From positions 167,266 through 231,265 of the forward strand of contig CACEQK010000001.1 in assembly GCA_902561585.1 (NCBI GenBank): a DNA stretch of 64,000 nucleotides, given 5' to 3'. Positions within the stretch are counted from its first letter, which is position 1, and every line of letters begins with the position of its first letter. The notes below the pieces were generated by a model. The model had not been told where the DNA came from. It saw nothing but the letters and a program-made list of their open reading frames with translations, and made no database searches. This stretch comes from an uncultured Pelagibacteraceae bacterium. GTDB taxonomy: Bacteria; Pseudomonadota; Alphaproteobacteria; Pelagibacterales; Pelagibacteraceae. Of the stretch, positions 35,449 through 64,000 are shown one piece after another. The position numbers were made by a program, and so were the translations under genes.

Positions 35449-35449
35449 A

Positions 35450-39124: not shown

Positions 39125-39901
39125 ATGTTCAATTCAATTAAAAAAGCAACAGACAAATATACCGGGTTACTAATAAGAATGGATGATATTACGGAATGCA
39201 TGAACTGGGAGAAGATGAATAAATGTGAGGACCTTTTTGATAAATACAAAATTAAACCTTTATTAGGAATAATCCCAATCAATAAAGATCCAGAATTATT
39301 GAAATTTCCGAAAAATATTGACTTTTGGAATAGAGTTTCTAATTGGAAAAACAAAGGTTGGGAGATTACAATGCATGGATACAACCATCTTTACACTCAA
39401 AGGTCTGACAAAAAAAAGGATTTATTTAATTATGGGGGAAACTCAGAATTTTATGGATTAGATTATAACACTCAACTTAATAAAATTAAAAAGGGTTTAG
39501 AAGAATTTAAAAAAAGAAATATCAACATAAGAAGCTTTTTTGCACCAAATCATATTTATGATGAAAATACTTTAAAAGCTCTTAAAAATTCTAATATTAA
39601 AATTATTATTGACGGTTATGGTTTATTTCCATTTTATAAAAATGATATATTATTTATTCCCCAGCTTTTTTATAAAGAAATTTTTTTGCCAATTGGTATT
39701 CAGTCAACGCAGATGCACATTAACGATTGGAACGACGAGTCATTTAAAAAATTCGAAGAATTTATTGAGAAAAATAAACCAAAAATCGTCAATTTAGATT
39801 ATATAATTGATATCGCCAGAAATAGTAGATTTCAAAACTTAACAAACTATTTCGTAGAGAAAAGTTTAAAAACTTTAAGATATTTTAGGAAATATTCTTA
39901 G
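39125..39901 (+). CDS. Polysaccharide deacetylase-like (DUF2334-type)
   Basis: LLIRMDDITECMNW, WEITMHGYNHLYTQRS, IRSFFAPNHIYDENTLKAL. Confidence 0.75.
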   Translation: MFNSIKKATDKYTGLLIRMDDITECMNWEKMNKCEDLFDKYKIKPLLGIIPINKDPELLKFPKNIDFWNRVSNWKNKGWEITMHGYNHLYTQRSDKKKDLFNYGGNSEFYGLDYNTQLNKIKKGLEEFKKRNINIRSFFAPNHIYDENTLKALKNSNIKIIIDGYGLFPFYKNDILFIPQLFYKEIFLPIGIQSTQMHINDWNDESFKKFEEFIEKNKPKIVNLDYIIDIARNSRFQNLTNYFVEKSLKTLRYFRKYS

Positions 39902-40670
39902 GATCTGGCATACCCACTTTATTATATCCTGCATCAACGTAATGAATTTCTCCAGTCACGCCAGCAGCCAAATCACTTAATAAGTATAAAGCTGAATTTC
40001 CAACATCATGAATATCAACATTTCGTTTTAAAAAGGAATGATCTTCATTCCACTTATATAAAAATTTTGCATCACCGATAGCTGAAGCAGCTAATGTTTT
40101 AATAGGGCCAGCACTTATTGCGTTAACTCTCAGTTTTTTTTGTCCTAAGTCTCTTGCTAAATATTTCACACTTGCTTCAAGTGCAGATTTACAGACACCC
40201 ATAACATTATAATTAGGGATTGCTTTTGTTGATTCATAAGTAAGCGTTAATAAACTTCCATTTTCTCTCATGATTTTTGAAGCCTCTTTTGAAACTTCAG
40301 TGAATGAAAAACATGAAATTAGCATACTTCTTAAAAAATTTTCTCTAGTTGTGTTCAGGTATTCACCTGATAATTCTGATTTGTCTGAAAATGCCACGGC
40401 ATGTACTACAAAATCAATTTGACCCCATTGTGATTTGATATCTTCGAATAATTTTATTACTTCTTCTTTTTTTTCAACATCACAACTAAAAGTAACTTTA
40501 GAATTTAGTTTTTCTGCTAAAGGTATAACTCTTTTTTTCAGAGCATCACCAAGATAAGTAAATGCTAACTGCGCACCAGCTTGTGATAATTTTTGGGAAA
40601 TACCCCAAGCTATTGAACGTTCATTAGCAACGCCCATAATTAAACCTTTTTTTCCTTTCATTAAATCCAT
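39885..40670 (-). CDS. fabI: Enoyl-ACP reductase FabI
   Basis: GLIMGVANERSIAWGISQKLS, VNAISAGPIKTLAASAIGD. Confidence 0.97.
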   Translation of the reverse strand: MDLMKGKKGLIMGVANERSIAWGISQKLSQAGAQLAFTYLGDALKKRVIPLAEKLNSKVTFSCDVEKKEEVIKLFEDIKSQWGQIDFVVHAVAFSDKSELSGEYLNTTRENFLRSMLISCFSFTEVSKEASKIMRENGSLLTLTYESTKAIPNYNVMGVCKSALEASVKYLARDLGQKKLRVNAISAGPIKTLAASAIGDAKFLYKWNEDHSFLKRNVDIHDVGNSALYLLSDLAAGVTGEIHYVDAGYNKVGMPDPKNIS

Positions 40671-40673
40671 GAT

Positions 40674-41885
40674 TTATACCTTTTCAAAAATAAGAGCAGC
40701 GTTTGTTCCTCCAAAGCCAAAACTATTTGACATAACTGTATTTAATGTTGCTCCCTTTTCAGTCTTAGAAACTATTGGAAATTTTTTTGCTTCTTCGTCC
40801 ATATCAGAAATATTAGCTGAGGCTGTGATAAAGTCATTTTTCATCATTATTAAACAGTAAATAGCTTCATGAACTGAAGCTGCCCCTAAAGGATGACCGG
40901 ATAAAGATTTTGTTGAACTAATTTTTGGTACATTTTCTCCAAAAGTTTTTCTAACCGCATTTAATTCAGTAATGTCACCAACAGGTGTAGATGTCCCGTG
41001 AGTATTTATATAATCAATTTTATTTTTTGCCGTAGACATTGCCATTTGCATACATCTAACTGCACCTTCTCCAGATGGAGCCACCATATCGTAGCCATCA
41101 GAAGTAGCACCATATCCAGTAAGTTCGGCATAAATTTTTGCACCTCTTGCTTTTGCGTGTTCGTACTCTTCTAGAACTAAAACACCGGCTCCACCAGCGA
41201 TTACAAATCCATCTCTTGTTTTATCATAAGCTCTTGAAGCAGTTTCAGGTTTATCATTGTACTTAGATGACAATGCGGTCATCGCATCAAACATCGCAGT
41301 CATTGCCCAATGAACTTCCTCACTTCCACCCGCAAAAATTACATCTTGTTTACCCATTTGAATTAATTCCATTGCATTACCGATACAGTGACCACTAGTT
41401 GCGCAAGCAGAACTCATTGTATAATTTGTACCCTTGATTTTAAATGGAACAGCAAGTGTTGCTGATGCAGTACTTGCCATTGTTCTAGGAACAATAAAAG
41501 GCCCCATTAGTTTTGGAGTTTTTGCTCTAGTTTTATCAGCAGCCAAAATTACATTCTCTATTGAAGGACCACCAGATCCCATGATAATTCCAGTTTTAAT
41601 ATTACTAACTTCACCATCCTCTAATCCAGAATCATTGATGGCTTCTTTCATAGCAACGTAGTTATATGCTGAACCCGATCCCATAAAACGAATTGATTTT
41701 CTATCTACGTGATCTGAAAGTTTAATATTTGGCTTACCATGAATATGGCTTTTTAAATTATGCTCTTTATATTCCTCACAAAAAGAAATACCAGATTTTG
41801 AATTAAGTAAAGATTGATGAACTTCTTCTTGATTATTCCCTAAACAAGAAACTATACCAAGTCCTGTAATTACCACTCTTCTCAT
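40674..41885 (-). CDS. fabB: Beta-ketoacyl-ACP synthase I
   Basis: [39 protein letters not shown]; adjacent fabA. Confidence 0.96.
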
Positions 41886-42385
41886 GATTTAAACAATCCT
41901 ACTTTTAGATTTTCTGTTTTATAAATTATTTTTCCATCTGCACTTAATATTCCATTAGCTAAACCAACACATGTGCCTTCTTTTTTTAAAACTCTTTTCA
42001 TATTTATTTCGTAGGTTGCCATTTTTACTTTTTTCAAAACTTCACCAGTGAATTTTACAGAATTTACCCCTAAAGCTCTACCTTTTCCTGGCTCGCCGAT
42101 CCATCCCAGGTAGAATCCAACCAGTTGCCACATAGCATCTAGGCCTAAGCAACCTGGCATAACTGGATCTCCTTTAAAATGACAATCAAAAAACCATAAA
42201 CTATCTTTGATATCTAGTTCCGCTTTGATAAAACCTTTTTTAAACTCTCCGGTATCATTTGTTATTTCCGTAATCCTGTCAAACATCAACATTGGAGGAA
42301 GTGGAAGTTTAGCATTTCCTTCTCCGAATAATTTTCCCTCTCCACACGAAATTAGATCGTCGTAGCTATAACTATTTTTTTGCAT
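41882..42385 (-). CDS. fabA: 3-hydroxydecanoyl-ACP dehydratase/isomerase
   Basis: [25 protein letters not shown]. Confidence 0.97.
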
Positions 42386-42437
42386 AATTTTTAGACTGTT
42401 TTACTTGATTTAAGAAAGTAATGGTATATATTTATAA

Positions 42438-42456
42438 TTTAGAATAATTATAAACT
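42438..42456. promoter_or_regulatory. Candidate Irr/ICE-like operator upstream of irr
   Basis: TTTAGAATAATTATAAACT, 17/19 identical to the site upstream of katG. Confidence 0.5.
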
Positions 42457-42468
42457 ACAATTTAATAA

Positions 42469-42882
42469 GTGAAAAAAACAAGTATTTTAAACAAATTAAG
42501 ATCTTCTGGTTTAAGACCTACCAAACAAAGAGTAGAAATAGCTAAATTATTGTTTAATAGAGACAAGACATTTCATTTTACAGTCGAGAGTTTAGGCAAA
42601 CATTTAGCAAAAAAAACTACAACAAAATTTGCTCTTGCAACAATTTATAATACAGTACACGCTTTTAAAAAAGCAGGTCACTTAAGTGAAGTACACTTAA
42701 GAGGCAAAAACAACACTACTTACTTTGATACAAATATTTCAAACCACCATCATTTTTATGACAGTGAAACATCGGAGTTGATTGATATTAATGATAACGA
42801 GATAAAATTTGATAAAATTCCTAAAGCACCTAACGGCAAAACTATAAAAAATTTAGAGGTAATCATAAATTTGAAAAACTGA
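42469..42882 (+). CDS. irr: Fur-family iron response regulator Irr
   Basis: GLRPTKQRVEIAKLLF, ALATIYNTVHAFKKAGHL, NHHHFYDSET; divergent from fabA as in many alphaproteobacteria; GTG start. Confidence 0.88.
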   Translation: MKKTSILNKLRSSGLRPTKQRVEIAKLLFNRDKTFHFTVESLGKHLAKKTTTKFALATIYNTVHAFKKAGHLSEVHLRGKNNTTYFDTNISNHHHFYDSETSELIDINDNEIKFDKIPKAPNGKTIKNLEVIINLKN

Positions 42883-42903
42883 CAGTTTGTCGCTTGGACT
42901 TAC

Positions 42904-42922
42904 TTTAGAACTATTATAAACT
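42904..42922. promoter_or_regulatory. Candidate Irr/ICE-like operator upstream of katG
   Basis: TTTAGAACTATTATAAACT, near-identical to 42438-42456. Confidence 0.5.
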
Positions 42923-42933
42923 TTAAAATATAG

Positions 42934-45114
<2,181 letters not shown>

Positions 45115-45115
45115 T

Positions 45116-45751
45116 ATGGAAATTGTTAAAACACAAAACTTAGAAAAGTTGAGTCAAAATATTAAAGATGATTTTTTTATTGTTCCAAATCTTAAATTTG
45201 ATGTTAAAAAATTAAGAACAGATTTTAATTTAATCCTCAAAAAAAAGAAATTTAACACACTTGGTATTAAAAATTTTGGTGCGATTGCTTTAAATCAAAT
45301 TCCAGGTGATAAATCTTCTATCGAAGGTCATAATGTAAGAGGCACTTATTGGACAATTCCGGATGAAGAGGGAAAAGAGATTGAGAGAGATAAACCTGTA
45401 GACGAGACAAAGTATACTGAAATAGTTCCAGAATTTAAAGGAACATATTTTGAAGAAGTCTATAATGTTATTAGTAAGCATTTTAAATTAGGACGAGTTA
45501 GAATTTTACTTAAAGAACCTAGATCAACTTTAAGCTGGCACAGAGATCCAGAACCAAGATTACATATACCAATTATAACAAATAAAGGATGCAGAATGGT
45601 TATAGAAGAGGTTTGCAGACACATGCCTGCAGATGGATCAGTAACTATCACTAATAATACAAAATATCACAACTTTTTTAACGGAGGTGAGCAAGATAGA
45701 ATTCATTTAGTTGCTTGTGTTTTGGAAAATCCTTTTAAGAAAAGCAACTAA
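45116..45751 (+). CDS. Aspartyl/asparaginyl beta-hydroxylase-like 2OG-Fe(II) dioxygenase
   Basis: LSWHRDPEPRLHIPIITNKGC...NNTKYHNFFNGGEQDRIHLV has HxD...H and R-x-H pattern of the AspH fold. Confidence 0.7.
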   Translation: MEIVKTQNLEKLSQNIKDDFFIVPNLKFDVKKLRTDFNLILKKKKFNTLGIKNFGAIALNQIPGDKSSIEGHNVRGTYWTIPDEEGKEIERDKPVDETKYTEIVPEFKGTYFEEVYNVISKHFKLGRVRILLKEPRSTLSWHRDPEPRLHIPIITNKGCRMVIEEVCRHMPADGSVTITNNTKYHNFFNGGEQDRIHLVACVLENPFKKSN

Positions 45752-46435: not shown

Positions 46436-47172
46436 TTATTTTTACAGTTTTTATTGACACTTATTTTTACTGTTCTCAAGTTCATTTTAAGAGAGTTAAA
46501 TATTAACATATTTGTATTTAAATCACTTTTTAAATTTAAAACTGTTTTTAAAACTTCATTGGCTTGTAGCGAGCCCATCACACCTGCTACTGGAGAAAAA
46601 ATTCCTTCTGTTTCGCAATTGTTTTCCAAAATTGGTTGTTCTGGCATAAAACATCTATAGCACGGTCCTTTTTTTGTAAAATTGAATTTTAACAGATGTC
46701 CATCAAATCGACTTATAGCGGCAGAGATTAGAATCTTTTTATTTTTTTTACAAAAATCATTTATTAAATATCTAGTTTCGTAGTTATCGGTACCATCACA
46801 AATTATTTCATAATTCTTTAGAATAGATTTTATATTTTTAAAAATTAATCTAGATTTAAATGTTTTAATTTTTATATTTTTATTAATTTTTTTTACGTGA
46901 GCTTTAGCCTGTATAACTTTATATTTATTTAAATCACTACTATTAAATAATATTTGTCTATTTAAATTACTTAATTCGACTTTGTCAGGATCGACTATAC
47001 CTACATGCCCAATACCTGAGGCTGCTAAGTAAGCAAGTAGCGGACATCCTAAACCGCCCATCCCGATAATTAAAATTTTTGCTTTTTTAATTTTTTTTTG
47101 ACCTTGTATGCCAACTTTTTTAAGAATTATTTGTTTTTCGAATCTCTTGAATTCTTTAAAATTAAAATTCAT
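46423..47172 (-). CDS. ThiF/MoeB/HesA family adenylyltransferase
   Basis: ILIIGMGGLGCPLLAYLAASGIGHVGIVDPDKVELSNLNRQILF, CDGTDNYETRYLIND. Confidence 0.93.
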   Translation of the reverse strand: MNFNFKEFKRFEKQIILKKVGIQGQKKIKKAKILIIGMGGLGCPLLAYLAASGIGHVGIVDPDKVELSNLNRQILFNSSDLNKYKVIQAKAHVKKINKNIKIKTFKSRLIFKNIKSILKNYEIICDGTDNYETRYLINDFCKKNKKILISAAISRFDGHLLKFNFTKKGPCYRCFMPEQPILENNCETEGIFSPVAGVMGSLQANEVLKTVLNLKSDLNTNMLIFNSLKMNLRTVKISVNKNCKNKCKK

Positions 47173-47175
47173 TTT

Positions 47176-47619
47176 TTATTTGGTTCCAGTTGAACCAAAG
47201 CCACCAGAACCACGTTCTGTATCTTCTAGTGTTTTTACTTCTTTTAAATTAGCTTTAACTATAGGGCATAAGACCATTTGAGCGATCCGTGTACCATTCT
47301 CCACTAAAAAATTTTTAGCACCTAAATTAATTAAGATTACTTTTAATTCTCCCCTGTAATCAGCATCAATAGTTCCTGGGGTATTCAAAACACTTAGTTG
47401 ATTTTTTGCTGCTAAACCAGATCGTGGCCTTATCTGAATTTCAAAGTTTTTAGGTATCGAGACAGCTAATCCTGTTGGAATAATAGCTGTAGACCCAGGT
47501 TTAATCTCAATACTTTCGTTTATATGAGCCGCAAGATCTAACCCAGAAGATCCCTCTGTTTCGTATTTGGGCAATACAACTTTATTAGAAAGTCGCTTAA
47601 TTAAAATTTCTGTCATCAA
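47176..47619 (-). CDS. dut: dUTPase
   Basis: EGSSGLDLAAH, RPRSGLAAKNQLSVLNTPGTIDADYRGE, RGSGGFGSTG. Confidence 0.98.
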   Translation of the reverse strand: MMTEILIKRLSNKVVLPKYETEGSSGLDLAAHINESIEIKPGSTAIIPTGLAVSIPKNFEIQIRPRSGLAAKNQLSVLNTPGTIDADYRGELKVILINLGAKNFLVENGTRIAQMVLCPIVKANLKEVKTLEDTERGSGGFGSTGTK

Positions 47620-48823
47620 GTAATCTATCTAACAAAATTTGTGCAATTTTATTAGCTATAAAACTTTTTTTATTTTTGGGAAAATGTTTTATATTTCCTT
47701 TTTTATCAATCATTGTAACTTTATTGTAATCAGAGTTAAATCCAATATTCTTTTTAGAAACATCATTTGCAAAAATAAAATCACAATGTTTGTTTTTAAT
47801 TTTACTTAAAGAGTTTTTAGTTAAATTATCCGTTTCAGCTGCGAACCCAGCTACTATTCGAGGTCTGCTTTTATTATTTTTAGATAAAAATTCTAAGATA
47901 TCATTATTTTTTTTTAACATTATAGAATTAGATTCGATTTCATCCTTTTTAATTTTTTTATTTTTTTTAAGTATTGGTTTAAAATCTGCTACAGCAGCAG
48001 CACAAACAGCTAAATCTACTGGCAAAGATTCTTTGACATTAAGCATCATTTCATCTGCAGAAGTTACTTTTTTGACCTTAATATCTTTAGGAGTTTTGTA
48101 ATTTGACGGACCAGCAATAACTGTTGTTTTAATGCCAAGTTTATTTAATGCCACAGCTATTTCATAACCTTGTTTTCCACTAGATTCGTTTGAAATATAT
48201 CTTACCGGATCAAGATATTCTCGCGTTGGTCCTGTTGTTACTAATGCTTTTAAATTCTTTTTTTTAACAATGTCTTTTTTATCGAAATAATTCTTAAGAT
48301 AGGAAAATATCTGTCTTGGACTAGACATTTTTCCCTCACCAAATTCACCACACGCCATTTCACCTTTTTCAGGACCAATGAATAAATATCCAAAATCTTG
48401 TAAAACTTTTAAATTAGCTTGAGTGGCTTTATGTAACCACATCCTAACATTCATAGCTGGGACTAATAACACATTCTTATCTGAGGCTAGCAAAACAGTT
48501 GTTGCTAAATCTTCGGCTTTTCCAATTGTCAGTTTACTCATAAAATTGGCTGTTGTTGGCATTACAATTATTATGTCGGCCCACCTTGATAAAGCTATGT
48601 GATCAATTTCAGCTTCAGCATCTTGATCGAATATATTTTCATATGTTTTAGATCGAGTTAGGGTGGTAAGTGACAAAGGTGTTACGAATTCTTTTCCACT
48701 TTTAGTTAGAATTGTTTTTATTTCTGAGCCATTTTTTTTTAACAATCTAATGAGGTCTAAAGACTTATAGGCCGCTATTCCTCCGCCAATGATTATTAAA
48801 ATTTTCTTATTTTTTAGTTCCAT
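47597..48823 (-). CDS. coaBC: Bifunctional phosphopantothenoylcysteine decarboxylase/synthase
   Basis: GGGIAAYKSLDLIRLLKK, VPAMNVRMW, TTGPTREYLDPVRYISNESSGKQGYEIA. Confidence 0.97.
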   Translation of the reverse strand: MELKNKKILIIIGGGIAAYKSLDLIRLLKKNGSEIKTILTKSGKEFVTPLSLTTLTRSKTYENIFDQDAEAEIDHIALSRWADIIIVMPTTANFMSKLTIGKAEDLATTVLLASDKNVLLVPAMNVRMWLHKATQANLKVLQDFGYLFIGPEKGEMACGEFGEGKMSSPRQIFSYLKNYFDKKDIVKKKNLKALVTTGPTREYLDPVRYISNESSGKQGYEIAVALNKLGIKTTVIAGPSNYKTPKDIKVKKVTSADEMMLNVKESLPVDLAVCAAAVADFKPILKKNKKIKKDEIESNSIMLKKNNDILEFLSKNNKSRPRIVAGFAAETDNLTKNSLSKIKNKHCDFIFANDVSKKNIGFNSDYNKVTMIDKKGNIKHFPKNKKSFIANKIAQILLDRLLDDRNFN

Positions 48824-48830
48824 TCTGAGA

Positions 48831-50393
48831 TTAAAATACCAATAGCATAACAATTACAATACCAAAAAAACTCATAATAATGTTATTTCTAAAGTTTTTA
48901 ATTTTCATCTGTTCTAATTCTAGATTTTTATTGCTGGGTCCAACACTTATTTTTCCTTCTGCCACAAGTTTCAAAGCGTGGTTAGCTTTATCCATTAACT
49001 CAGGGAAATCAGGAATTCTTTTAATTATTTCTGCGGAAGTATTTATTGCAGTATCAATAGTCTTTTTAGGCCCTTTTAAATTCTTTAACCAGTCTTCTAA
49101 GACTGGTTTTGACACTTCCCAAATATTTGTTTCAGGATATAGTTTTCTCGCAACACCTTCTACTACTACCATATTTTTTTGAAGCAACAACAAAGATGGT
49201 TGAGTTGCCATGTTAAACTTTTCTGTTATTTCAAATAGTTGAGCTAGTAAATTTCCACCTGAAATATCCTTAATAGACTGACCAAATATAGGCTCCCCAA
49301 CAGATCTTAGAGCTTGGGCAAATTCATCTCTAGAAGCCTCTTGAGGAACAAGTCCAGCTTGAAAATGTACATCGGCAACTTTAACGTAGTCTCTTTGAAT
49401 AAATCCGTATAAAATTTCTGCTAAATATTTTCTGTTGTTTTTATCCAACCTGCCCATTATTCCAAAATCAACAGGAACAATATTTCCTTTAGAGTCCACA
49501 AATAAATTACCTTGATGCATATCTCCATGAAAGAAACCATCCCTCACAGCTTGTTTGAGAAAATGTTGTATTAAATTTTCTGCTAGTTTTTTTAAGTTAA
49601 CACCTTGTTCTTCTAATTTTTTATGTTCCCTAATAGAAATGCCTTCAACTTTATCTAATGTAAGTATTTTTTTTGTTGTGTAGTTCCAGTAAATTTTAGG
49701 AACATTAAAACCAATATCAGATTTTGTATTTTCATATAATTCATTTGCAGCAGCGGCCTCAAATCTTAAATCCATTTCAATATTAGTTATCTCTCTTAAT
49801 AAATGAACAACCTCAATTAATTTAAGTCTTTTTGCTTTTGGGATTGCATTCTCAACTATGTATGCAAACAACATGAGTGCATCTAATTCTTCGTTGAACA
49901 GTTTTTCTATTTCAGGTCTTAATATTTTTATTGCAACTTGTTTTTCTTGGTTCTCATTCTTTATTTTTGCGAGGTGAACTTGAGCAATAGATGCAGCTGC
50001 AATTGGTTCACTTATTTCAATAATATTATTAAATTGTTTTTCTCCTATCTCTTTTTTAATTACTCTCTTTGCCTCATAAAGATCAAATGCTGGCACTTTA
50101 TCTTGAAGTTTCTCTAAATCTTTAGCCATTTGATCTCCAATAATATCTGGCCTTGTAGCAAGGAACTGACCTAGTTTGATAAAAGTAGTCCCCATGCCTT
50201 GTAAAGCTAAACAAAGTTTTTCACCTGGTTTTTGATTGTTCTCAAATCGATTACTTTCTGCTCCAATTGAGATAAGGCTAAAAAATAAGTTTATTGATAC
50301 AGGAATTTGATAAACTTGATTTATAATATCAACAGCTCCCGAAGTAGATAGCCTTCTAGCAATTTGAAACAATTTAAAAACTCTCTTTAACAT
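48831..50393 (-). CDS. ubiB: UbiB family ubiquinone biosynthesis kinase-like protein
   Basis: KPGEKLCLALQGMGTTFIKLGQFLATRPDIIG, FFHGDMHQGNLFVDSKGNIVPVDFGIMG. Confidence 0.96.
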   Translation of the reverse strand: MLKRVFKLFQIARRLSTSGAVDIINQVYQIPVSINLFFSLISIGAESNRFENNQKPGEKLCLALQGMGTTFIKLGQFLATRPDIIGDQMAKDLEKLQDKVPAFDLYEAKRVIKKEIGEKQFNNIIEISEPIAAASIAQVHLAKIKNENQEKQVAIKILRPEIEKLFNEELDALMLFAYIVENAIPKAKRLKLIEVVHLLREITNIEMDLRFEAAAANELYENTKSDIGFNVPKIYWNYTTKKILTLDKVEGISIREHKKLEEQGVNLKKLAENLIQHFLKQAVRDGFFHGDMHQGNLFVDSKGNIVPVDFGIMGRLDKNNRKYLAEILYGFIQRDYVKVADVHFQAGLVPQEASRDEFAQALRSVGEPIFGQSIKDISGGNLLAQLFEITEKFNMATQPSLLLLQKNMVVVEGVARKLYPETNIWEVSKPVLEDWLKNLKGPKKTIDTAINTSAEIIKRIPDFPELMDKANHALKLVAEGKISVGPSNKNLELEQMKIKNFRNNIIMSFFGIVIVMLLVF

Positions 50394-51097
50394 TATATTT
50401 TCCAACCAGAATGGATCGCTGAAATTCCATTTGATAAATTTCTATATTCAACATTAGAAAAACCATTTTTAATCATCAACTCACACAGTTGTTTTTGATT
50501 GTAAAATGAATCTATGCTTTCCACTAGATAATCATATGGTTTAGAAGAACCCACAATATATTTACCTGCTAACGGGATAATTTTAGAATATTGCTTATAT
50601 AAAAAATTTAATGCTTCATTATCTATTTTTGAAAATTCTAAGCACATAAATCGGCCACCTGTTTTTAAAACCCTGTAAGCTTCTTTTAAAGTTTTATTGA
50701 TATCACTAACATTTCTTATCCCGTAACTTATAGTGTAATAATCAAAAGAATTATCTTTAATAGGTAAAACTTCAGCTGCAGCTTTTATCCATTCAATATT
50801 TTTATATTTTTTCAAATTTTTTTTCCCTTCCTCGAACATATCATTATTTGGTTCTACACAGGTAATTTTTGCAGAATGATTTATATAATTTGAAAACAAT
50901 TTTGCAATGTCGCCTGTGCCAGATGCAACATCAATAAGATTTGAATTTGGAGATGGGTTAAGCCAGTTAATATATTTATCTTTCCAAATACGGTGAATAC
51001 CTAAAGACATAACATCATTCATCAAATCATATTTCTTATAAACTTTTGAAAATACCGAATTGACTAATTTTGTTTTATCTTGAATATTGTTTTTCAT
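50393..51097 (-). CDS. ubiE: Ubiquinone/menaquinone methyltransferase UbiE
   Basis: YDLMNDVMSLGIHRIWKD, LIDVASGTGDIA, YGIRNVSDI. Confidence 0.97.
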   Translation of the reverse strand: MKNNIQDKTKLVNSVFSKVYKKYDLMNDVMSLGIHRIWKDKYINWLNPSPNSNLIDVASGTGDIAKLFSNYINHSAKITCVEPNNDMFEEGKKNLKKYKNIEWIKAAAEVLPIKDNSFDYYTISYGIRNVSDINKTLKEAYRVLKTGGRFMCLEFSKIDNEALNFLYKQYSKIIPLAGKYIVGSSKPYDYLVESIDSFYNQKQLCELMIKNGFSNVEYRNLSNGISAIHSGWKI

Positions 51098-51108
51098 AGA
51101 ATAATTAT

Positions 51109-51978
51109 ATGCCAGAATTACCAGAAGTTGAAGTTGTTAAAAGGTCTCTGACTAGCAAAATCCAAAAATTAGTCGTTGAGAAAATAACAGTTAAAGATGA
51201 AAAATTAAGATATAGAATAAATAAAAAGAAATTAAAAATTCTTTTAGGTCTTAAGATTATCAAAATTTTAAGAAGGTCAAAATTCTTATTATTTGTATTT
51301 GAAAAAAACACTGTGATGCTTGTGCATCTTGGTATGACAGGTAAATTTTTTTTTCTTAATAGAAATGCCAAAAAATTTAAAACAAGTTTTTACTATAATA
51401 TAGATGAGTCTAAAGATAATAAACATAATAGATTGATATTCTCATTATCTAAGAAGCAGAAATTAATTTATAATGATGTAAGAAAATTCGGTTTTATTAA
51501 AATCTTAGATAAGAGACAGCTACAAGACAATCTCCACCTTAAAAATTTAGGTCCCGAACCATTAGGTAATAGCTTTGATTTTAAATATTTTAAAAATTAT
51601 TTAATTAATAGAAACAGAACAATTAAGGATATTTTAATGGATCAAAAATTTGTATCAGGTTTGGGTAATATTTATGTGAATGAGGTACTTTTTTTAAGTA
51701 AGGTTAAACCAACAAAAAAAACTTATTTAATTAAAAATAATGAAATTCATAAAATAATTAAGAATACCAAAAAAACGTTAAAAAAAGCTATATCTTTGGG
51801 CGGTTCGTCCTTAAGGGATTTTTCTAGTAGCGATGGAAAAAAAGGTGAATTTCAACAGTATTTTTATGTTTATGGAAAGAAAGGAGATAATTGCTTAAAT
51901 AGAAACTGTAATAAAAAGATTATAAAAACGATTATAGGAAATAGAGCTACTTTTTACTGTCCGAAGTGCCAAAAATAA
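51109..51978 (+). CDS. mutM: Formamidopyrimidine-DNA glycosylase
   Basis: N-terminal (M)PELPEVEVVKRSL; C-terminal zinc finger CLNRNCNKKI...FYCPKCQK. Confidence 0.98.
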   Translation: MPELPEVEVVKRSLTSKIQKLVVEKITVKDEKLRYRINKKKLKILLGLKIIKILRRSKFLLFVFEKNTVMLVHLGMTGKFFFLNRNAKKFKTSFYYNIDESKDNKHNRLIFSLSKKQKLIYNDVRKFGFIKILDKRQLQDNLHLKNLGPEPLGNSFDFKYFKNYLINRNRTIKDILMDQKFVSGLGNIYVNEVLFLSKVKPTKKTYLIKNNEIHKIIKNTKKTLKKAISLGGSSLRDFSSSDGKKGEFQQYFYVYGKKGDNCLNRNCNKKIIKTIIGNRATFYCPKCQK

Positions 51979-52022
51979 TAAAGTTGACCGTATAAATCCA
52001 TTTCTATATACAATCGTAAAAA

Positions 52023-52283
52023 ATGCCTAACACTAAATCAGCAATTAGAAGAGTAAGAAGAGTTAAAAAACAAACTCAAGTCAATAAAATTAGAAAAAGC
52101 AAGTATAAAAATGCTGTTAAGCAAATGGAACTTTTAATTAAAAACAAAGAAAAAGATAAAGCAAAAAAATATTTTTCAAAGTTCCAATCAATTCTAATGC
52201 AGGTTGCTAAGTTAGGTATAATTAATAAAAATACAGCTTCTAGAAAAATTTCTAGAATTTCAAAAAAAATTTCTTCTAAATAA
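52023..52283 (+). CDS. rpsT: 30S ribosomal protein S20
   Basis: MPNTKSAIRRVRRVKKQT...; precedes dnaA. Confidence 0.96.
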   Translation: MPNTKSAIRRVRRVKKQTQVNKIRKSKYKNAVKQMELLIKNKEKDKAKKYFSKFQSILMQVAKLGIINKNTASRKISRISKKISSK

Positions 52284-52497
52284 CAATTTAGAGTTGTTCA
52301 TCTAAAAAAATTTAATCTACATTTAGTATCTTCTAACCAAATATAGAAACTTAAATCAGCAAGTTGAAATTTTTTTTTAATTCTATCTGAACGATTAATG
52401 TACAACCAAAAAATAATTTTATTTTCGATTACAACCTCTGCTTAGTTGCAAATAATTAGTAAAAGTCGTTTAAAAGAATCTCTTTACGAAACTCTAC

Positions 52498-53889
52498 ATG
52501 GAAAACAAAATTACAAAAAAACAAAACACGTTTATTTCTGAAGAGGAAAAAACGTTAAACTGGGAAGATATACAAGCTACCTTTAAGAAAACTTTTGGAA
52601 CAGAGGTCTATAATAGTTGGTTACAAAAAATATCTCTTGTCAAAGAATATAATGATTACTTAATTTTAGGTGTGCCTACCAGGTTTTTTAGAGATTGGAT
52701 CGTATCAAGGTACTTAGATAAAATTTTAGAACAAGTAAAAAGCTTTAAATTAAGTTTAAATAGAATTGAGTTTAAAATAATAGATGATAATAAGCAAAGC
52801 CAAGAATATTTGAAGATTACCGAGTTAAATAATGTAACTGAAATTAAAGACTCTATTATTAATTATAATAGACTAAATCCAAGTCTTAATTTTGATAGTT
52901 TTATCAAGGGAAAAAGTAATGATATTGCTTTGTCCTACTCTAAAAAAGTATGTGAGCATATAGCAAGATATAACCCGTTATATATTTGTGGTGGCGTAGG
53001 TCTTGGAAAAACTCACTTATTAAATGCTATTGGTTTAAGGTTACAAAATAATAATAACGTGATGTTTATTTCTGCAGAACGATTTATGTACCATTTTATA
53101 AAATCAATTAAAAAGAATGATATGGTTAATTTTAAAGATTTTTTCAGAAAATCTTCAGTTTTTATAATAGATGATATACAATTTATAAGTGGAAAAGAGA
53201 GCCTTCAAGAAGAGTTTTTTCATACTTTTAACAGTCTTATAGACAAAGGATCTCAAATCATAATCTCTGCAGACAGACCACCAATGAAACTTGATAGAGT
53301 GCAAGAAAGGATTAAATCTAGATTAGCCGGTGGACTTGTCGTTGACATTGATCTCCCTGACTTTGAATTGAAAGTAAAAATAATTAAAAAGAAAATTGAT
53401 GAAATTCAAAATCAATTTAAAGAGAATATTATATTGAGCGAAGATGTAATCAATTACATTGCAACTGAAAGTAAAACAAATATTAGAGAACTAATTGGTG
53501 TCCTAAACAGAGTAGTTGCTTTTAGCAGAGTCCATAATAAAGAATTAACAATCAATGACTGTAAAAATATTTTACGAGATGTCTTTAGTCAAATTAGGGT
53601 TATTACTGTAGATAAAATACAAAATGTTGTTTCAAACTATTTTAATATTGCTTTAACCGAAATGTTGTCTCAGCGAAGATCTAGACCGCTTGCAAGACCT
53701 AGACAAGTAGCGATGTATTTAGCAAAAAAAATGACAACTAGATCTTTACCAGAAATAGGAAGGAGATTTGCAAATCGTGACCATACCACGGTTATTCATG
53801 CCGTAAAAACAATTACACGTTTATCCGAACAAGATGAGGAAATGAAAAAAAATATTAATCAGATTAAAAGTTTACTTTTAGAACAATAA
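52498..53889 (+). CDS. dnaA: Chromosomal replication initiator DnaA
   Basis: ICGGVGLGKTHLLNAIG, VFIIDDIQFISGKE, ANRDHTTVIHAVKTI. Confidence 0.99.
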   Translation: MENKITKKQNTFISEEEKTLNWEDIQATFKKTFGTEVYNSWLQKISLVKEYNDYLILGVPTRFFRDWIVSRYLDKILEQVKSFKLSLNRIEFKIIDDNKQSQEYLKITELNNVTEIKDSIINYNRLNPSLNFDSFIKGKSNDIALSYSKKVCEHIARYNPLYICGGVGLGKTHLLNAIGLRLQNNNNVMFISAERFMYHFIKSIKKNDMVNFKDFFRKSSVFIIDDIQFISGKESLQEEFFHTFNSLIDKGSQIIISADRPPMKLDRVQERIKSRLAGGLVVDIDLPDFELKVKIIKKKIDEIQNQFKENIILSEDVINYIATESKTNIRELIGVLNRVVAFSRVHNKELTINDCKNILRDVFSQIRVITVDKIQNVVSNYFNIALTEMLSQRRSRPLARPRQVAMYLAKKMTTRSLPEIGRRFANRDHTTVIHAVKTITRLSEQDEEMKKNINQIKSLLLEQ

Positions 53890-53893
53890 TTGA

Positions 53894-55006
53894 ATGCAAT
53901 TCTCAATAAAAAGAGACGTTTTATTAAGATCTTTAAATTTTGTTCAGGGCGTCGTTGAAAAAAAAAATACGCTTCCAATTTTGTCCAATGTTCTTCTACA
54001 GCTAAAGGATAAAAAATTATCAATAGTAGCTACTGATTTAGATATAATATTTTACAATGAAATTCATGATGTAAAAATAGTTAATGAAGGAAGCACAACA
54101 ACATCTGCAGCTATTCTTTATGATATTTTAAGAAAGATTTCATCTAATTCTGAATTAAACTTTGAATTAAAATCTGAGAATAAGCTTAGTCTTAAAAGTG
54201 ATAATTCAGATTTTAATTTACTTTGTCTACCAACAGATAATTTTCCAACTTTTGCAGATGAATTTGAAGGCCAAGAAATCTCATTAAATAATAGTAGATT
54301 TCTAAAATTATTAAATAAAACTAAAATTTCAATATCTAATGATGATACAAGACATTATTTAAATGGAATTTTCCTCCATTTGACAGAAGCTCATGGTAGA
54401 CAATTTTTAACTGGTGTTGCTACTGACAGTCATCGACTTTCTTCAAGTAGTTTAGAAATTGATAAAAATGACTTTAATTCTTTAATTTTACCAAGAAAAA
54501 CAGTTTTTCAATTATGCTCGTTATTAGCTGAAACTTCTGATCAACTTACAATGCAATCAAGTGAGAATAAAATTAAATTCACGTTAGGTAAGATGAAATT
54601 AATTTCAAAAGTAATAGATGGAAAGTTTCCTGATTACAAAAAAGTTGTACCAACTTCAAATGATAAAATATTAAATGTTTCATCAAAGGATTTTGTCAGC
54701 TCAATAGAAAGAGTGGCGAGTGTTTCTCTGGATAGGAAAGAAGGTGTAAAACTGACAATTAATAAGGATAATGTTCAATTATCAGTTAACAGCGCTAATT
54801 CAGGAGATGGTAACGAAAAAATTAAAGCCGAATTTAGTTCTGACAGTTTAAATATTAGTTTCAATTCAAAATATTTAATAGATATTGCATCGGAAATTGA
54901 GGATAAAAATTTAAAAATTAATTTTAAAGACTCAGTATCACCTGTTCTTATAGAGGATCTTTCGGATAAAAATAGTTATTACGTTATAATGCCAATGAAA
55001 ATTTAA
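53894..55006 (+). CDS. dnaN: DNA polymerase III beta sliding clamp
   Basis: FVQGVVEKKNTLPILSNVLLQ, ATDSHRLS, ending YYVIMPMKI; follows dnaA. Confidence 0.98.
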   Translation: MQFSIKRDVLLRSLNFVQGVVEKKNTLPILSNVLLQLKDKKLSIVATDLDIIFYNEIHDVKIVNEGSTTTSAAILYDILRKISSNSELNFELKSENKLSLKSDNSDFNLLCLPTDNFPTFADEFEGQEISLNNSRFLKLLNKTKISISNDDTRHYLNGIFLHLTEAHGRQFLTGVATDSHRLSSSSLEIDKNDFNSLILPRKTVFQLCSLLAETSDQLTMQSSENKIKFTLGKMKLISKVIDGKFPDYKKVVPTSNDKILNVSSKDFVSSIERVASVSLDRKEGVKLTINKDNVQLSVNSANSGDGNEKIKAEFSSDSLNISFNSKYLIDIASEIEDKNLKINFKDSVSPVLIEDLSDKNSYYVIMPMKI

Positions 55007-55115
55007 GATTTTCAAAATTTAGAATAAAAATTTTTTTTTGCCCTAGAATTGTTGATACATAATCATTCTAAGTCATCATAGCCAACAGCTATTTTATCTT
55101 AAGTAAAAAAAATGA

Positions 55116-57197
<2,082 letters not shown>

Positions 57198-57201
57198 TTA
57201 A

Positions 57202-58488
57202 ATGGATTTTTCTACTCTCTTTAGGACAAAAGAGAATTTAAATTTAGATAAAAGCACTCTAACAATTTTAAGATATATTGCGATAATAGGCCAATTTATC
57301 GCAATAAATATAGTCTATTTCTACTTGTCCTTACCTTTTCCAATCGAACTAAGTTATTTAATAATTTTTATCGGTTTATTAACAAATATTTACCTTCAAT
57401 TTGGAATAAAAATAAACCAACTTAAAGATTTATATGCTGCTATATTTTTAATCTATGATCTTATTCAATTAAGTTTTTTGCTTTATCTAACTGGAGGAAT
57501 TTTCAATCCATTTAGTTTTTTGCTTATTATTCCAGCAATTGTTTCCTCAACTTTTTTAAGCATGGGAACAACTATAATTTTAGGTTTTGTGACCTCTTTG
57601 TTTCTTTTAGTTATTTCATTTTTTTATTTACCTTTACCAGGAGAGGACATGAATTTACTTCATTTTCCAGATTTCTATAAAATTGGTATAATAATTTCAA
57701 TTTTAATCGGTTTAATGTTTCTAAGTTATTTTGGAATTCGTTTCGCTGGTGAAACAAAAAAAAGATCAGAGGCATTAAATAAATTGCAAGAAGTCATCGC
57801 AAAAGAATACGAGCTTGAGTCTCTAGGGGGTCAAGCAGCTGCAGCAGCTCATTCATTAGGCACTCCTTTAGCAACTATTGCTGTTGTTGCAAAAGAATTA
57901 AAAAAAGAGATCGGAGATAATAAAGATATTTCAAAAGATATTGATTTGTTAATAAGCCAGACAAAAAGATGTAGCGAAATTTTAAAAAAGATATCAAAAA
58001 AACAAATTGAGGAAGACATATTTTTAAGTTCCATCAAACTAGAGGATCTACTAGAAGAAATAATAGACTCATTTAAAGAAACATCTTCAAAAAAAATAGA
58101 TTTAATTTTAGACGATGATAATAACAAGATAAATATCGAGAGAACTCCTGAAATTATTTATGGATTAAGAAATTTTATTGGAAATGCTGTTAAATTCTCT
58201 AAAAGTAAAGTTAAAATTAATTTAAAAAGTGACCCAAATAAAATTGAAATAAAAATCAACGATGACGGGCCGGGAATACCCGATGATATCATCAAAAAAA
58301 TCGGTGAGCCTTATATTAAATCTAAATCTATAGAATTAAGTTCTAACTCAGGATTAGGCCTTGGAACATTTTTGGGAAAAACACTATTAGAAAGACAAGG
58401 TGCAAATTTATCATTTAGAAGAAATAATGATCTAGGTGGAGCACTTGTAATCATTAGGTGGGATCCAAAAAAAATAATTAATTCTTAA
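57202..58488 (+). CDS. regB: RegB/PrrB-type redox sensor histidine kinase
   Basis: Multi-TM; YLTGGIFNPF quinone-box-like motif; AAHSLGTPLATIAVVAKEL H-box; NDDGPGIPDDII and GLGLGTFLGKTLLERQGA. Confidence 0.9.
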   Translation: MDFSTLFRTKENLNLDKSTLTILRYIAIIGQFIAINIVYFYLSLPFPIELSYLIIFIGLLTNIYLQFGIKINQLKDLYAAIFLIYDLIQLSFLLYLTGGIFNPFSFLLIIPAIVSSTFLSMGTTIILGFVTSLFLLVISFFYLPLPGEDMNLLHFPDFYKIGIIISILIGLMFLSYFGIRFAGETKKRSEALNKLQEVIAKEYELESLGGQAAAAAHSLGTPLATIAVVAKELKKEIGDNKDISKDIDLLISQTKRCSEILKKISKKQIEEDIFLSSIKLEDLLEEIIDSFKETSSKKIDLILDDDNNKINIERTPEIIYGLRNFIGNAVKFSKSKVKINLKSDPNKIEIKINDDGPGIPDDIIKKIGEPYIKSKSIELSSNSGLGLGTFLGKTLLERQGANLSFRRNNDLGGALVIIRWDPKKIINS

Positions 58489-59359
58489 ATTCAAAAGAAT
58501 AAGAAATAATTTTATAAGCTAATTTAGCAACAAGAAAATTATACGAGTCGAAATTTTTTATTGGAGCCAATTCGTTAATATCAGCCCCAACTACATTTGA
58601 AATCTGACAAACTTTTTTAATTATAGGCAAAACATCTTCCCATAGCATACCACCGGGCTCAGGCGTACCTGTTGCTGGCATTATGCTTGCGTCGAATCCA
58701 TCTACATCAAATGTAATATAGACAATTTTATTTTTAAAAAATTTATCTAATAGGGATAAATCCCATGTTTGCTTATCTTTTCCCCAAAATATTTCAATTC
58801 TATCTCTATTATTATTATAAAAATCCATTTCTTTTTTAGATAAATTTCTAATACCAAAAGAAACTACTTTTAAATTTTTATAATCTAAACATCTCTTAAT
58901 AGCTGAAGCATGAGAGAATTTTTCACCCTGATAGCTTTCTCTTAAATCTGCATGAGCATCAAAATGTAAGAGTATTATTTCATCATATTTTTTTGCAAAA
59001 GGCTTGATAGATCCAGGTGTTATAGAGTGTTCTCCACCAAAAACTAAAGGAAATTTATCAATTGATAGAATATCTTCATTAATTTTTGATAATTGATCTA
59101 AAGCACTTTCTATTTTATTCTTAATAGCAAAAGGTTTTAATGTTTTAATTCCTATTTCTTTATGAGGCTCCTTATTAAGTTCTTCATCAAATAATTCTAC
59201 TTGGTGAGAAGCTTTAATTATTTCTTTTGGACCATTTTTTGTACCACCTCCATAACTTACAGTTTTTTCTAGCCCAAATGGAACTACGATTACTTGAGGA
59301 GATCTACTTAGTTTAGCGTCAATACCTAAAAAACCTTTTTTGGGACTGAGGTATTTCAT
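58478..59359 (-). CDS. speB: Agmatinase/ureohydrolase family protein
   Basis: VFGGEHSITPG, LLHFDAHADLRESYQGEKFSHASAI, YITFDVDGFDASIMPATGTPEPGG. Confidence 0.92.
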   Translation of the reverse strand: MKYLSPKKGFLGIDAKLSRSPQVIVVPFGLEKTVSYGGGTKNGPKEIIKASHQVELFDEELNKEPHKEIGIKTLKPFAIKNKIESALDQLSKINEDILSIDKFPLVFGGEHSITPGSIKPFAKKYDEIILLHFDAHADLRESYQGEKFSHASAIKRCLDYKNLKVVSFGIRNLSKKEMDFYNNNRDRIEIFWGKDKQTWDLSLLDKFFKNKIVYITFDVDGFDASIMPATGTPEPGGMLWEDVLPIIKKVCQISNVVGADINELAPIKNFDSYNFLVAKLAYKIISYSFEFKN

Positions 59360-60409
59360 TTAAGATTTAAAAATGTTAGAGAAATTTCTTTTATCTCTTT
59401 TTTTCCAATTTTCTCGGTGATAGGCATCACTTGCAATCAAAGGTAACACACTTGTTGCTTCTGCAAAAACCATTTGCTCTTTTGTAATATCAACTTTACC
59501 CCACGAGCTTGCTTCTTTTAGCGTAGAACTACTACAAGCACCATCACGTGTATCTGCTACAGTAATTTGAATTGCATATTTATGCATGTCTACTTTTTTT
59601 CCTAAAAGTTCAGCACAAACGACAGTGTCTTGAATAAAATTTTTAGGTACGCCTCCACCTATCATTAGTAATCCTGATTGTTTAGATTGTAGTTTAATTT
59701 CTGTTAATTCTCTAAACTCTCTTATGGAGTCTATAGTAATATGTTTACCTGGATTTTGTTCTTGATGCATCACTAAACCAAAACCAGCAGAACTATCAGT
59801 AAATGCAGGACAGAATATTGGAACATTATAATCGTATGCAGTTTCAATTAAAGAACCTTTTTTCTTGGAATTTGTTTTTAGAAATTTCCCTAATTCCTTG
59901 ATAAACTCTCTAGAAGTATAGGCTTTTGGTTTTAATAAGTTAGCTATATTACATATTGTCTGATCACACGCTTGCAGTTCTTCTTCATCTATGTATGTAT
60001 CATAAATTCTATCAATATAGTTATTACGAAGTTTAGTATCGTCTTCAAACTGAGATCCTTGGTAATGTTTAAAACCCAATGCCTCAAAGAAATCCATGTC
60101 AATTATGGATGCTCCTGTAGCCACTATAGCATCAACCATATTATGTTTTACTAAATCAGTGTAAAGATCCATACATCCACCTGCTGAGGTAGAACCGGCT
60201 AAGGTGAGAAATATTGAGCAATCCTTATCAGCTAACATTTCATTATAAATTGCTGCTGCTCTCGCCGTATCTCTTGAAGTAAAAGACATTTTACTCATAC
60301 CTTCAATAATTTTTCGTGCATCAAACGATTTGATGTCGATGTGCTCTACCGGTGAGTTGAGAAGAGATTTTTTATTATGTCCAATATTAGGACTGTCTTT
60401 TTTTTCCAT
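59360..60409 (-). CDS. Deoxyhypusine synthase-like protein (possible homospermidine synthase)
   Basis: MIDAIVATGASIIDMDFFEALG-like; ITVADTRDGACSSSTLKEASSWGKVDI matches DHS family including SWGK lysine. Confidence 0.88.
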   Translation of the reverse strand: MEKKDSPNIGHNKKSLLNSPVEHIDIKSFDARKIIEGMSKMSFTSRDTARAAAIYNEMLADKDCSIFLTLAGSTSAGGCMDLYTDLVKHNMVDAIVATGASIIDMDFFEALGFKHYQGSQFEDDTKLRNNYIDRIYDTYIDEEELQACDQTICNIANLLKPKAYTSREFIKELGKFLKTNSKKKGSLIETAYDYNVPIFCPAFTDSSAGFGLVMHQEQNPGKHITIDSIREFRELTEIKLQSKQSGLLMIGGGVPKNFIQDTVVCAELLGKKVDMHKYAIQITVADTRDGACSSSTLKEASSWGKVDITKEQMVFAEATSVLPLIASDAYHRENWKKRDKRNFSNIFKS

Positions 60410-61590
60410 TAAGCTACTAATGATCCAACTTTTTTATCTAGATCATCGTACATGGACATAATTGGTTTGTCACTTAATTCATGAATTTCATTAGAGTAAA
60501 ATCCATTGAAGTTAGTTCTAAATGTTAAGCTGTAAGCTCCTAACTGACCTAACTCTATATAATCACCTTCTTTAATATTATTAGGTAGCAAGAAAGGCCC
60601 TTTCATATAATCTAATCCATCACAAGTTGGTCCAAAAAAACTAAACGCAGTAAGTTTTTTTGATTGAATTCTTCCTTCTGTAATCATTTTCGAAGGAAGC
60701 ACAAAGTTTGGTGCACCAGCGTCAAAAAGCGATCCATAAGTTCCATCATTAATGTAAAGATTATTTTTCTTTCTCAAAATTACTTTAACAATGGTAGAAC
60801 CACTTTCAGCCACTATTGCTCTTCCTGGCTCACAAATAATTTCAGGTAATTTATCTAACTTTAAATTATTAAGTTCTTTTTTAATCTCCATCATATAATT
60901 TGATAAAGGTTCTGGATTTAAATCTGGGTAAATGGATGGAAAGCCTCCGCCAACATTAATTGTATCTGGAATTATTTTTGTTTTTTTAATTATGTTTCCT
61001 ATTTCTTTTATCCCTTTCGAATAAGAAATTTTATGCATACATTGAGATCCTACATGAAAACTTATTCCTAATTTTTTAGCATGATGTTTACAAAGTCTTA
61101 CTAGACCTAGAGCTTCAGATGGAAGAGCACCAAACTTTCTTGATAAATCAATTTCTGCATGCTCATTAGAAATGGCTATCCTTACAAAAAGTTCCAAATC
61201 TTTTGCTTGATTTGTAGCATCCAAAATCTTTCTTAATTCATCTTTACTATCTAATGAAAAACTTTTTACATTGTATTCATTATAAGAAGATGCAATACTT
61301 TCTTTACTCTTTACAGTATGCATGAAATGGAGTTTTGCTTCTGGGTAAATTTTATTAATCAATTTTACTTCATTTATTGAAGCAACATCGAATTCGTTGA
61401 TACCACTTGCAATTATCTGTTTAATAATTTTTTCGTTAGGATTTGTTTTTACAGCGTAGAGAATTTTTCCTGGAAATTTTTCTTTAAAGAAATTTACGGA
61501 TTTTTTTATCTCGTTAGGCCGTATACAATATACGGGATAATCTGGTTTTAATGAGTTAACTAATTCGTTAACTGTTTTAAATTTTCCCAT
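60409..61590 (-). CDS. Ornithine/lysine decarboxylase, alanine-racemase fold
   Basis: ILYAVKTNPNEKII (PLP Lys), HVGSQ, VGGGFPSIYP, CEPGRAIVAESG, FGPTCDGLDYMKG. Confidence 0.93.
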   Translation of the reverse strand: MGKFKTVNELVNSLKPDYPVYCIRPNEIKKSVNFFKEKFPGKILYAVKTNPNEKIIKQIIASGINEFDVASINEVKLINKIYPEAKLHFMHTVKSKESIASSYNEYNVKSFSLDSKDELRKILDATNQAKDLELFVRIAISNEHAEIDLSRKFGALPSEALGLVRLCKHHAKKLGISFHVGSQCMHKISYSKGIKEIGNIIKKTKIIPDTINVGGGFPSIYPDLNPEPLSNYMMEIKKELNNLKLDKLPEIICEPGRAIVAESGSTIVKVILRKKNNLYINDGTYGSLFDAGAPNFVLPSKMITEGRIQSKKLTAFSFFGPTCDGLDYMKGPFLLPNNIKEGDYIELGQLGAYSLTFRTNFNGFYSNEIHELSDKPIMSMYDDLDKKVGSLVA

Positions 61591-61621
61591 TTCATGTGTC
61601 CCTCGTTAGTTAGTTTACACA

Positions 61622-61681
61622 AAGGTTTTTTAAAAAATTTAATAAAAAAAACCTTAATATTTCCGCGTTTAAGGTTTTTTT
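61622..61681 (-). promoter_or_regulatory. Switchable hairpin leader with terminator-like stem upstream of ornithine decarboxylase gene
   Basis: AAGGTTTTTT / AAAAAAACCTTAA / TTAAGGTTTTTTT: middle segment can pair with either flank. Confidence 0.55.
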
Positions 61682-61753
61682 GCCACAGTGTAAAGAAAAA
61701 AATGCCTTTCGTGAGCTGTTGTATTCACATTAATCGTGCCTATATAGGTGGTA

Positions 61754-62326
61754 ATGAGATCGCAAAAAAATTTACCAGAACAGCTAAAGTTGGCAGACTT
61801 TGCAGAAAAATCGCTGTTAATTTTGGACGATGATGATCCCTTAAGGGGGAGGCTTGCAAGAGCTATGGAAAAGAAGGGATTTCAGGTAAAAGAGGCTAAA
61901 ACGGTAGCTGAGGGACTTAATATAGTCAAATCTACCCCTCCAAGCTTTGCTTGTGTGGATCTAAGGCTAGAAGACGGTAATGGATTAGATGTAGTCAAAG
62001 AGCTATCAAAAAATAATAAAGAAAGCAGAATAGTAATGTTAACGGGATACGGGAATCTACCTACAGCTGTAGCGGCAGTGAAAGCTGGAGCGATCGATTA
62101 CATTGCTAAACCTGTGGACGCAGACGATGTTGAGTCGGCATTGCTAGCGTCTCCGGAATCAAAAGCTAAACCTCCAGAAAACCCAATGTCAGCTGACCGG
62201 GTAAAATGGGAACACATTCATAGAGTTTTTGAGTTATGCAATAGAAATGTATCTGAAACTGCAAGAAGACTTAAGATGCACAGAAGAACTCTTCAAAGAA
62301 TTCTATCTAAAAGATCACCTAGATAA
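61754..62326 (+). CDS. regA: RegA/PrrA/ActR-type response regulator
   Basis: LLILDDDDPLRGRLARAMEKKGF, CVDLRLEDGNGLDVV, C-terminal Fis-like HTH NVSETARRLKMHRRTLQRILSKRSPR. Confidence 0.95.
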   Translation: MRSQKNLPEQLKLADFAEKSLLILDDDDPLRGRLARAMEKKGFQVKEAKTVAEGLNIVKSTPPSFACVDLRLEDGNGLDVVKELSKNNKESRIVMLTGYGNLPTAVAAVKAGAIDYIAKPVDADDVESALLASPESKAKPPENPMSADRVKWEHIHRVFELCNRNVSETARRLKMHRRTLQRILSKRSPR

Positions 62327-62327
62327 A

Positions 62328-62879
62328 TTAAATAAATTTTTTTATTTTGATAATCTGATTAATTGCAAAAGTGGCAATTAAAATTTTAAAAAGTTCAGCT
62401 AAAAGAAATGGCTGAGCACCTAATTTGAATATCGGTTTGTCCCATCCAATTAAACTTCCTAACCATACCATACCCAGTAAATATATAAAACTTGTTGCAA
62501 AAGTAATTTTTAAAAAATTAGTAATTAGATTTTTACTATAGTTAAATTTACCAGCAAAAAACACGGCGACTAAAAATCCAATTAAGTAACCCATTGTTGG
62601 CCCTGTGAAATAAACAAGTCCAACTCCTTTTTCAGGTGTACCAGAAAAAACAGGCAATCCAATAATACCTTCAAACAAATATAAAGATACAGTTGCTAAG
62701 CCCAACTTCCAACCAAAGGCAGCACCTATCATTATAACAACTAAAGTTTGCATTGTCATTGGCACTGGGTAAAACGGAATTTTTACTTTTGATGAAATAG
62801 CTAATGCAATACTTCCAATCAAAGCGATGAAAGCATATTTTATAATTTTAGAAGATTTTAAACTTTTTACTAACTCCAT
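62328..62879 (-). CDS. bioY: Biotin transporter substrate-binding component BioY
   Basis: VKIPFYPVPMTMQTLVVIMIGAAFGWKLGLATVSLYLFEGIIGLPVFSG. Confidence 0.96.
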   Translation of the reverse strand: MELVKSLKSSKIIKYAFIALIGSIALAISSKVKIPFYPVPMTMQTLVVIMIGAAFGWKLGLATVSLYLFEGIIGLPVFSGTPEKGVGLVYFTGPTMGYLIGFLVAVFFAGKFNYSKNLITNFLKITFATSFIYLLGMVWLGSLIGWDKPIFKLGAQPFLLAELFKILIATFAINQIIKIKKFI

Positions 62880-62910
62880 ATTATTAATTTAACTTTTTTT
62901 TCATTAAAAT

Positions 62911-63717
62911 CTAGTGCTTTGTTAATTGAACAAAAACGTCCTCTAAATCACCATCATCTGTTGAAATATCCTCAATTTCAATATTATTTCTATTCAGATG
63001 ATTTGCGATTTCAGCAAAATCTAAAGAATTTTTTTCATAAGAAGCAGAAATTAAAGTATTAGAAATAATTTTAAATTCTATACCATCCATTGATAGTGAA
63101 GAATTAACATCAACATTTTTAACTTTAAAATTTATATTTTTAGTTTTGATCCTTGCTAAAAGTTTTTCTGTTGTATCTAAAGCAACAAGATTTCCCTTAT
63201 CAATTATTGCTATCCTGTCACACATTTCTTGAGCTTCTAAAAGATAATGAGTAGTTAGAATTACGGTAACGCCTTCTTTATTAAGCTCTTTTACATTTTT
63301 CCAAAGGTTATTTCTAAGCTCAACATCTACGCCTGCAGTTGGTTCATCTAAAATCAGTATTGGTGGTTGGTGAACCATAGCTTTAGCAATTAATAATCTT
63401 CTTTTCATTCCACCTGAAAGACTTCTAGCGTATGCGTTAGCCTTATCTTCCAAAGCAACCATTTTTAAAATTAGATCTGTTATCCTATCTTTTTTTGAAA
63501 TACCGTAGAGACCAGCTTGAAGATCAAGAAGTTTTTTAGGGGTAAAAAAAGCGTCCAAGTTCACCTCTTGAGGAACGATTCCTAAAGATGCTCTAACTTG
63601 ACGAGGATTTTTATCTAGGTCAAAACCCCAAACATCTACTTGTCCTGATGTTTTAATTACAGTTCCTCCCAGAATACTTAAAAAAGTAGTTTTGCCGGCT
63701 CCGTTAGGACCGAGCAA
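62911..63717 (-). CDS. ABC-2-type transporter ATP-binding protein, N-terminally truncated at a junction
   Basis: LGPNGAGKTTFLSILGG, SLSGGMKRRLLIAKAMV, LILDEPTAGVD; homology continues upstream in frame as NKALTNLTFEVKQGEVFGL without an ATG. Confidence 0.85.
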   Translation of the reverse strand: MLGPNGAGKTTFLSILGGTVIKTSGQVDVWGFDLDKNPRQVRASLGIVPQEVNLDAFFTPKKLLDLQAGLYGISKKDRITDLILKMVALEDKANAYARSLSGGMKRRLLIAKAMVHQPPILILDEPTAGVDVELRNNLWKNVKELNKEGVTVILTTHYLLEAQEMCDRIAIIDKGNLVALDTTEKLLARIKTKNINFKVKNVDVNSSLSMDGIEFKIISNTLISASYEKNSLDFAEIANHLNRNNIEIEDISTDDGDLEDVFVQLTKH

Positions 63718-63758
63718 GCCAAATACTTCTCCTTGTTTAACTTCAAAGGTAAGATTAG

Positions 63759-64000
63759 TCAGAGCTTTATTTTGTTTTGTGGTATTTCTGATGCTTTGTT
63801 TAGCAGATTTTCAAGGGTTTTATATTTATTAATAAGTTCTGACGCAGTTTTGATTCCTATACCAGGAACTCCTGGTACATTATCTGAGCTGTCTCCAGCC
63901 AGTGATTGAACATCGATTACTTGATTTGGTTTTACTCCAAATTTTTCAAAAACTTCTTTTTCACCTATTACTTTACTTTTCATAGGATCAAAGAGTCTTA
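63759..64000 (-). pseudogene. polA: DNA polymerase I, 5'-3' exonuclease domain fragment; gene stops early, continues beyond window at its 5' side
   Basis: RLFDPMKSKVIGEKEVFEKFGVKPNQVIDVQSLAGDSSDNVPGVPGIGIKTASELINKYKTLENLLNKASEIPQNKIKL-stop, ending inside the exonuclease domain. Confidence 0.75.

Follow-up and report, generated by a model that had tools for sequence, protein, structure and literature searches.

A very probable amplification chimera joins an inverted polA fragment to an ABC transporter gene at a SAR11 contig end

At one end of a Pelagibacteraceae contig, an inverted fragment of polA adjoins a truncated ABC transporter ATPase gene. We conclude with high confidence that this break was made in vitro, as an inverted chimera with an intervening deletion, of the type produced by multiple displacement amplification (MDA), and passed from there into the assembled contig, at its tip.

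The break at the contig end

The window, the whole 64,000-nucleotide stretch analysed here, corresponds to C1:167266-231265 of a 27-contig, 824,764-base assembly that is 71.6% complete. Its last base is also the last base of contig C1 (231,265 bp). The features around the break are as follows:

62911..63778, minus strand: ABC transporter ATPase gene, 5'-truncated (PF00005; comparison with the relative G031)
63770..63778, no strand: junction, 9-nt microhomology TTTTGTTTT, common to the ABC-side and polA-side parents
63770..64000, minus strand: inverted polA fragment, part of the 5'-3' exonuclease domain, stopping at the contig end
64000..64000, no strand: end of contig C1 (C1:231265)

The ABC ATPase gene retains residues ~21–309 of the 309-residue protein of G031, and the start codon and first ~20 codons are gone. 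Its frame has no ATG and extends back to an in-frame stop within the polA sequence. Read on the minus strand from 64,000 downwards, polA terminates in ...SEIPQNKIKL-stop at 63,759. The fragment covers residues ~158–235 of ~921, starting at residue ~235 and reaching ~158 where the contig runs out, and it forms a tip of ~230 bp whose two ends, the join and the contig end, are both artificial. The polA and ABC ATPase sequences adjoin at 63,770–63,778, and neither frame continues across. The original prediction, that a single point interrupts both genes, is confirmed, and the letters it reported are correct. On the far side of the ABC ATPase gene lies an adjoining BioY-type biotin transporter gene (window 62328–62879), in the same order as in G031.

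Alignment to both parents located the join precisely. The window tracks the ABC parent up to 63,778 and already agrees with the polA parent from 63,770 on, an overlap of 9 nt; the parents in this alignment are relatives, and the true overlap may differ from 9 nt by about one base. The polA side is clearest against the relative G019 (96% identical). The microhomology predicted at this point is thus borne out. When random inverted joins of less than 2 kb were simulated in the window's AT-rich sequence, an overlap of at least 9 nt arose by chance with a frequency of ~1.4e-4, or ~1.4 in 10,000.

polA and its neighbour in relatives

Relatives carry an unbroken ABC ATPase gene beside an unbroken polA, the two pointing away from each other (ABC<- ->polA). 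Searched against relatives, the window's ABC and polA parts hit common contigs but opposite strands. The fetched loci agree: in 77 of the 77 that were informative, meaning that both parts were found, the strands are opposite and the distance between the parts is 569–841 bp. The count is 75 of 75 without L102 and L104, which are overlapping re-fetches, and some genomes may be counted twice, under a handle and as a named record. The nearest relative, G031, is 94% identical on the ABC side and 92% on the polA side, and its join points are 808 bp apart. Its genes are arranged as follows:

L102:5375-6304, minus strand: ABC ATPase, 309 aa, complete, divergent from polA across a 43 bp gap
L102:6348-9113, plus strand: polA, 921 aa, complete, with DNA polymerase I domains present

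The two genes are therefore adjacent in nature but divergent, and not neighbours in the window's orientation. By comparison with these relatives, both genes were probably intact, adjacent and divergent in the genome of the sequenced cell as well.

No relative carries the join. Among the fetched loci, the window's own is the only sequence that spans it. With a 271-base query placed across the join, not one listed match, from 168 genomes of the genus, runs through the junction: on the ABC side the listed matches end by base 153, and on the polA side none of them begins before base 127. A continuous match over the junction would rank near the top of the matches listed. A relative aligning continuously over 63,759–63,790, which the original prediction had named as evidence against a break, was looked for and not found, either in the fetched loci or among those listed matches.

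Over a longer span, the window is collinear with the relative G021 from 47,039 to 63,786 (16.7 kb), and the strand flips only for the last ~230 bp. Further upstream, ~17 kb of the window (28382–45346) has no G021 match longer than 150 bp at E <= 1e-20, and its flanks are collinear stretches lying on different G021 contigs. This segment is possibly a variable genomic island.

We also considered whether the fragment could be an exonuclease-only PolA, as the original prediction proposed should the break be real. By sequence the fragment is bacterial DNA polymerase I: over 76 residues, its amino-acid identity to a SAR11 relative reaches 99%. It retains just ~78 of the ~921 residues of the full protein, with no natural gene end at either side. 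Like a stand-alone 5'-3' exonuclease (ExoIX/Xni-like), it carries part of PF01367, the exonuclease C-terminal domain; unlike one, it is a piece cut from a full-length polA and not a complete exonuclease gene. A natural exonuclease-only gene would hold complete nuclease and SAM-fold domains and no polymerase domain, whereas the stub holds only positions 1–57 of the 97 in PF01367. With that partial domain cut by the join and the contig end, and with full-length polA in relatives, the proposal finds no support.

The original prediction also suggested searching the genome for the missing polymerase domain. That search was run, and PF00476 has no match in the 71.6%-complete assembly. Comparison of a relative's polA region with the assembly returned nothing outside the two known pieces save a weak 55-bp match on contig C2. 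The exonuclease piece occurs only once in the assembly, and the 568-bp ABC–polA spacer and the remainder of polA are absent from it. Across 121 sampled same-genus genomes, the polymerase domain occurs in 93 and is missing from 28, the assembly under study included; all eight of the sampled genomes that are at least 90% complete have it. These counts rule out loss of polA from the lineage. The domain is missing here because the assembly is incomplete at this place.

An amplification chimera and its rivals

Among the top matches to polA, most are Pelagibacteraceae records named in the AG series, which we take to be single-cell isolates. The shortest contig in the assembly is 2,001 bp, and a single-cell pipeline is described that trims 100 bp off contig ends and keeps contigs >2,000 bp (PMC5519541). 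From these two observations, together with a further probable chimera in contig C15 (below), we infer that the source DNA was amplified, or of single-cell origin.

Chimeras formed by MDA have a characteristic structure. Lasken and Stockwell (2007) found that >85% are inverted with an intervening deletion, and that the segments lie mostly <10 kb apart and share 2–21 nt of complementarity; they arise when a 3' end, once displaced, pairs with another displaced strand close by and is extended from there (PMC1855051). The polA/ABC join resembles these chimeras in each of these sequence features. Its second segment is inverted relative to the genome, the two parts lying on opposite strands at every informative locus. 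The segments are close (808 bp in G031, <10 kb) and the spacer between them is skipped and absent from the assembly, although this absence alone cannot separate an artefact from a rearrangement at 71.6% completeness. The complementarity, at 9 nt, falls within 2–21 nt, and the join is absent from independent genomes among the matches listed for the 168. It differs in that it was seen in an assembled contig, whereas the published chimeras were reads mapped to a known reference (PMC1855051).

On this model, MDA of a SAR11 (Pelagibacteraceae) cell with a phi29-type polymerase would have generated the chimera. A 3' end growing through the ABC gene would have been displaced at TTTTGTTTT and would have re-annealed ~0.8 kb ahead, within polA, where the complementary strand, itself displaced, offered the matching bases. 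The re-annealed end would then have been copied back toward the start of polA, with the contig stopping ~230 bases later.

Contig C15 (11,325 bp; L215) holds another inverted join, built like the first. It switches strand internally, near C15:3677-3694. Against the relative G022, it follows one strand up to the join, jumps 4.6 kb ahead, and then runs back 3.7 kb to the contig end, at 95% identity on one side of the join and 86% on the other. Both parents have TTTTT where they meet, and a search of the assembly for the 858-bp spacer found nothing. The join disrupts a 440-aa glutamate-cysteine ligase-like (GCS2-like) gene and a 293-aa EamA transporter gene. A real inversion in C15 is also improbable: a single artefact process is far likelier than two gene-breaking inversions of one form that both happen to have the second breakpoint concealed where the contig stops.

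We compared the ends of all 27 contigs with G021. The ends that match are mostly collinear, and several have no G021 match. Among the assembly's own contig ends, a search for foldback repeats turned up nothing beyond a near-palindrome of 35 bp in C10 and one direct repeat, in C13. In addition, a ~650-bp stretch that lies inside the C9-matching region of G021 is absent from C9 (L218, near 5470-5499). It occurs instead at the 5' end of C21 (L216, 1-731), where it borders sequence from which 144 kb separate it in G021. Four relatives that have both this stretch and its C21 neighbour sequence carry them on separate contigs. The C9/C21 arrangement represents either a gene relocation or another chimera.

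Could the break instead be genuine? A microhomology-mediated inversion in the cell's genome would also leave microhomology at the junction, small inversions do occur, and the C15 join is open to the same reading. It would, however, require two independent gene-breaking inversions in one streamlined genome, one through polA and the ABC gene and one through the glutamate-cysteine ligase-like and EamA genes, with the contig happening to end before the second breakpoint in both cases. The lack of the join in the fetched loci and in the matches listed from the 168 genomes, and the retention of polA by all eight of the 121 sampled genomes that are at least 90% complete, also weigh against a real inversion, which we regard as very unlikely. 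That the cell truly carried a polA-inactivating inversion with the spacer missing, and was alive or dying without polymerase I and the ABC transporter, is highly improbable. A simple deletion that fused the two genes and left PolA with its exonuclease alone would break both frames at one point, as seen. The natural genes are divergent, however, and a deletion cannot bring both onto one strand; the stub, moreover, holds only part of one exonuclease domain. The opposite orientation of the two genes in relatives refutes this explanation, and the chance we leave it is vanishingly small. Of the two origins in the original prediction, a microhomology deletion or a misjoin, the misjoin is supported; the deletion fails, since polA here runs opposite to its natural orientation.

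A misjoin could also have come from the assembler or the library preparation rather than the amplification enzyme, and the location of the join at a contig end fits such an origin. Assembly k-mers are longer than 9 nt. An overlap shorter than the k-mers requires a physical chimeric molecule, which argues against the assembler. Library preparation does yield chimeric read pairs, but in amplified endosymbiont DNA same-strand (inverted) pairs rose 10–20 fold specifically in amplified samples, and departures from the reference lay chiefly at contig ends (PMC3842359). We therefore consider a misjoin from either of these steps extremely doubtful.

Reading contig tips of amplified genomes

The polA/ABC junction is almost certainly not a real genomic feature. 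The last ~230 bases of C1, and C15 beyond its join, are unfit as evidence for gene loss or fusion. More broadly, contig tips of amplified genomes may bear short inverted chimeras that mimic truncated or fused genes, and such tips call for caution.
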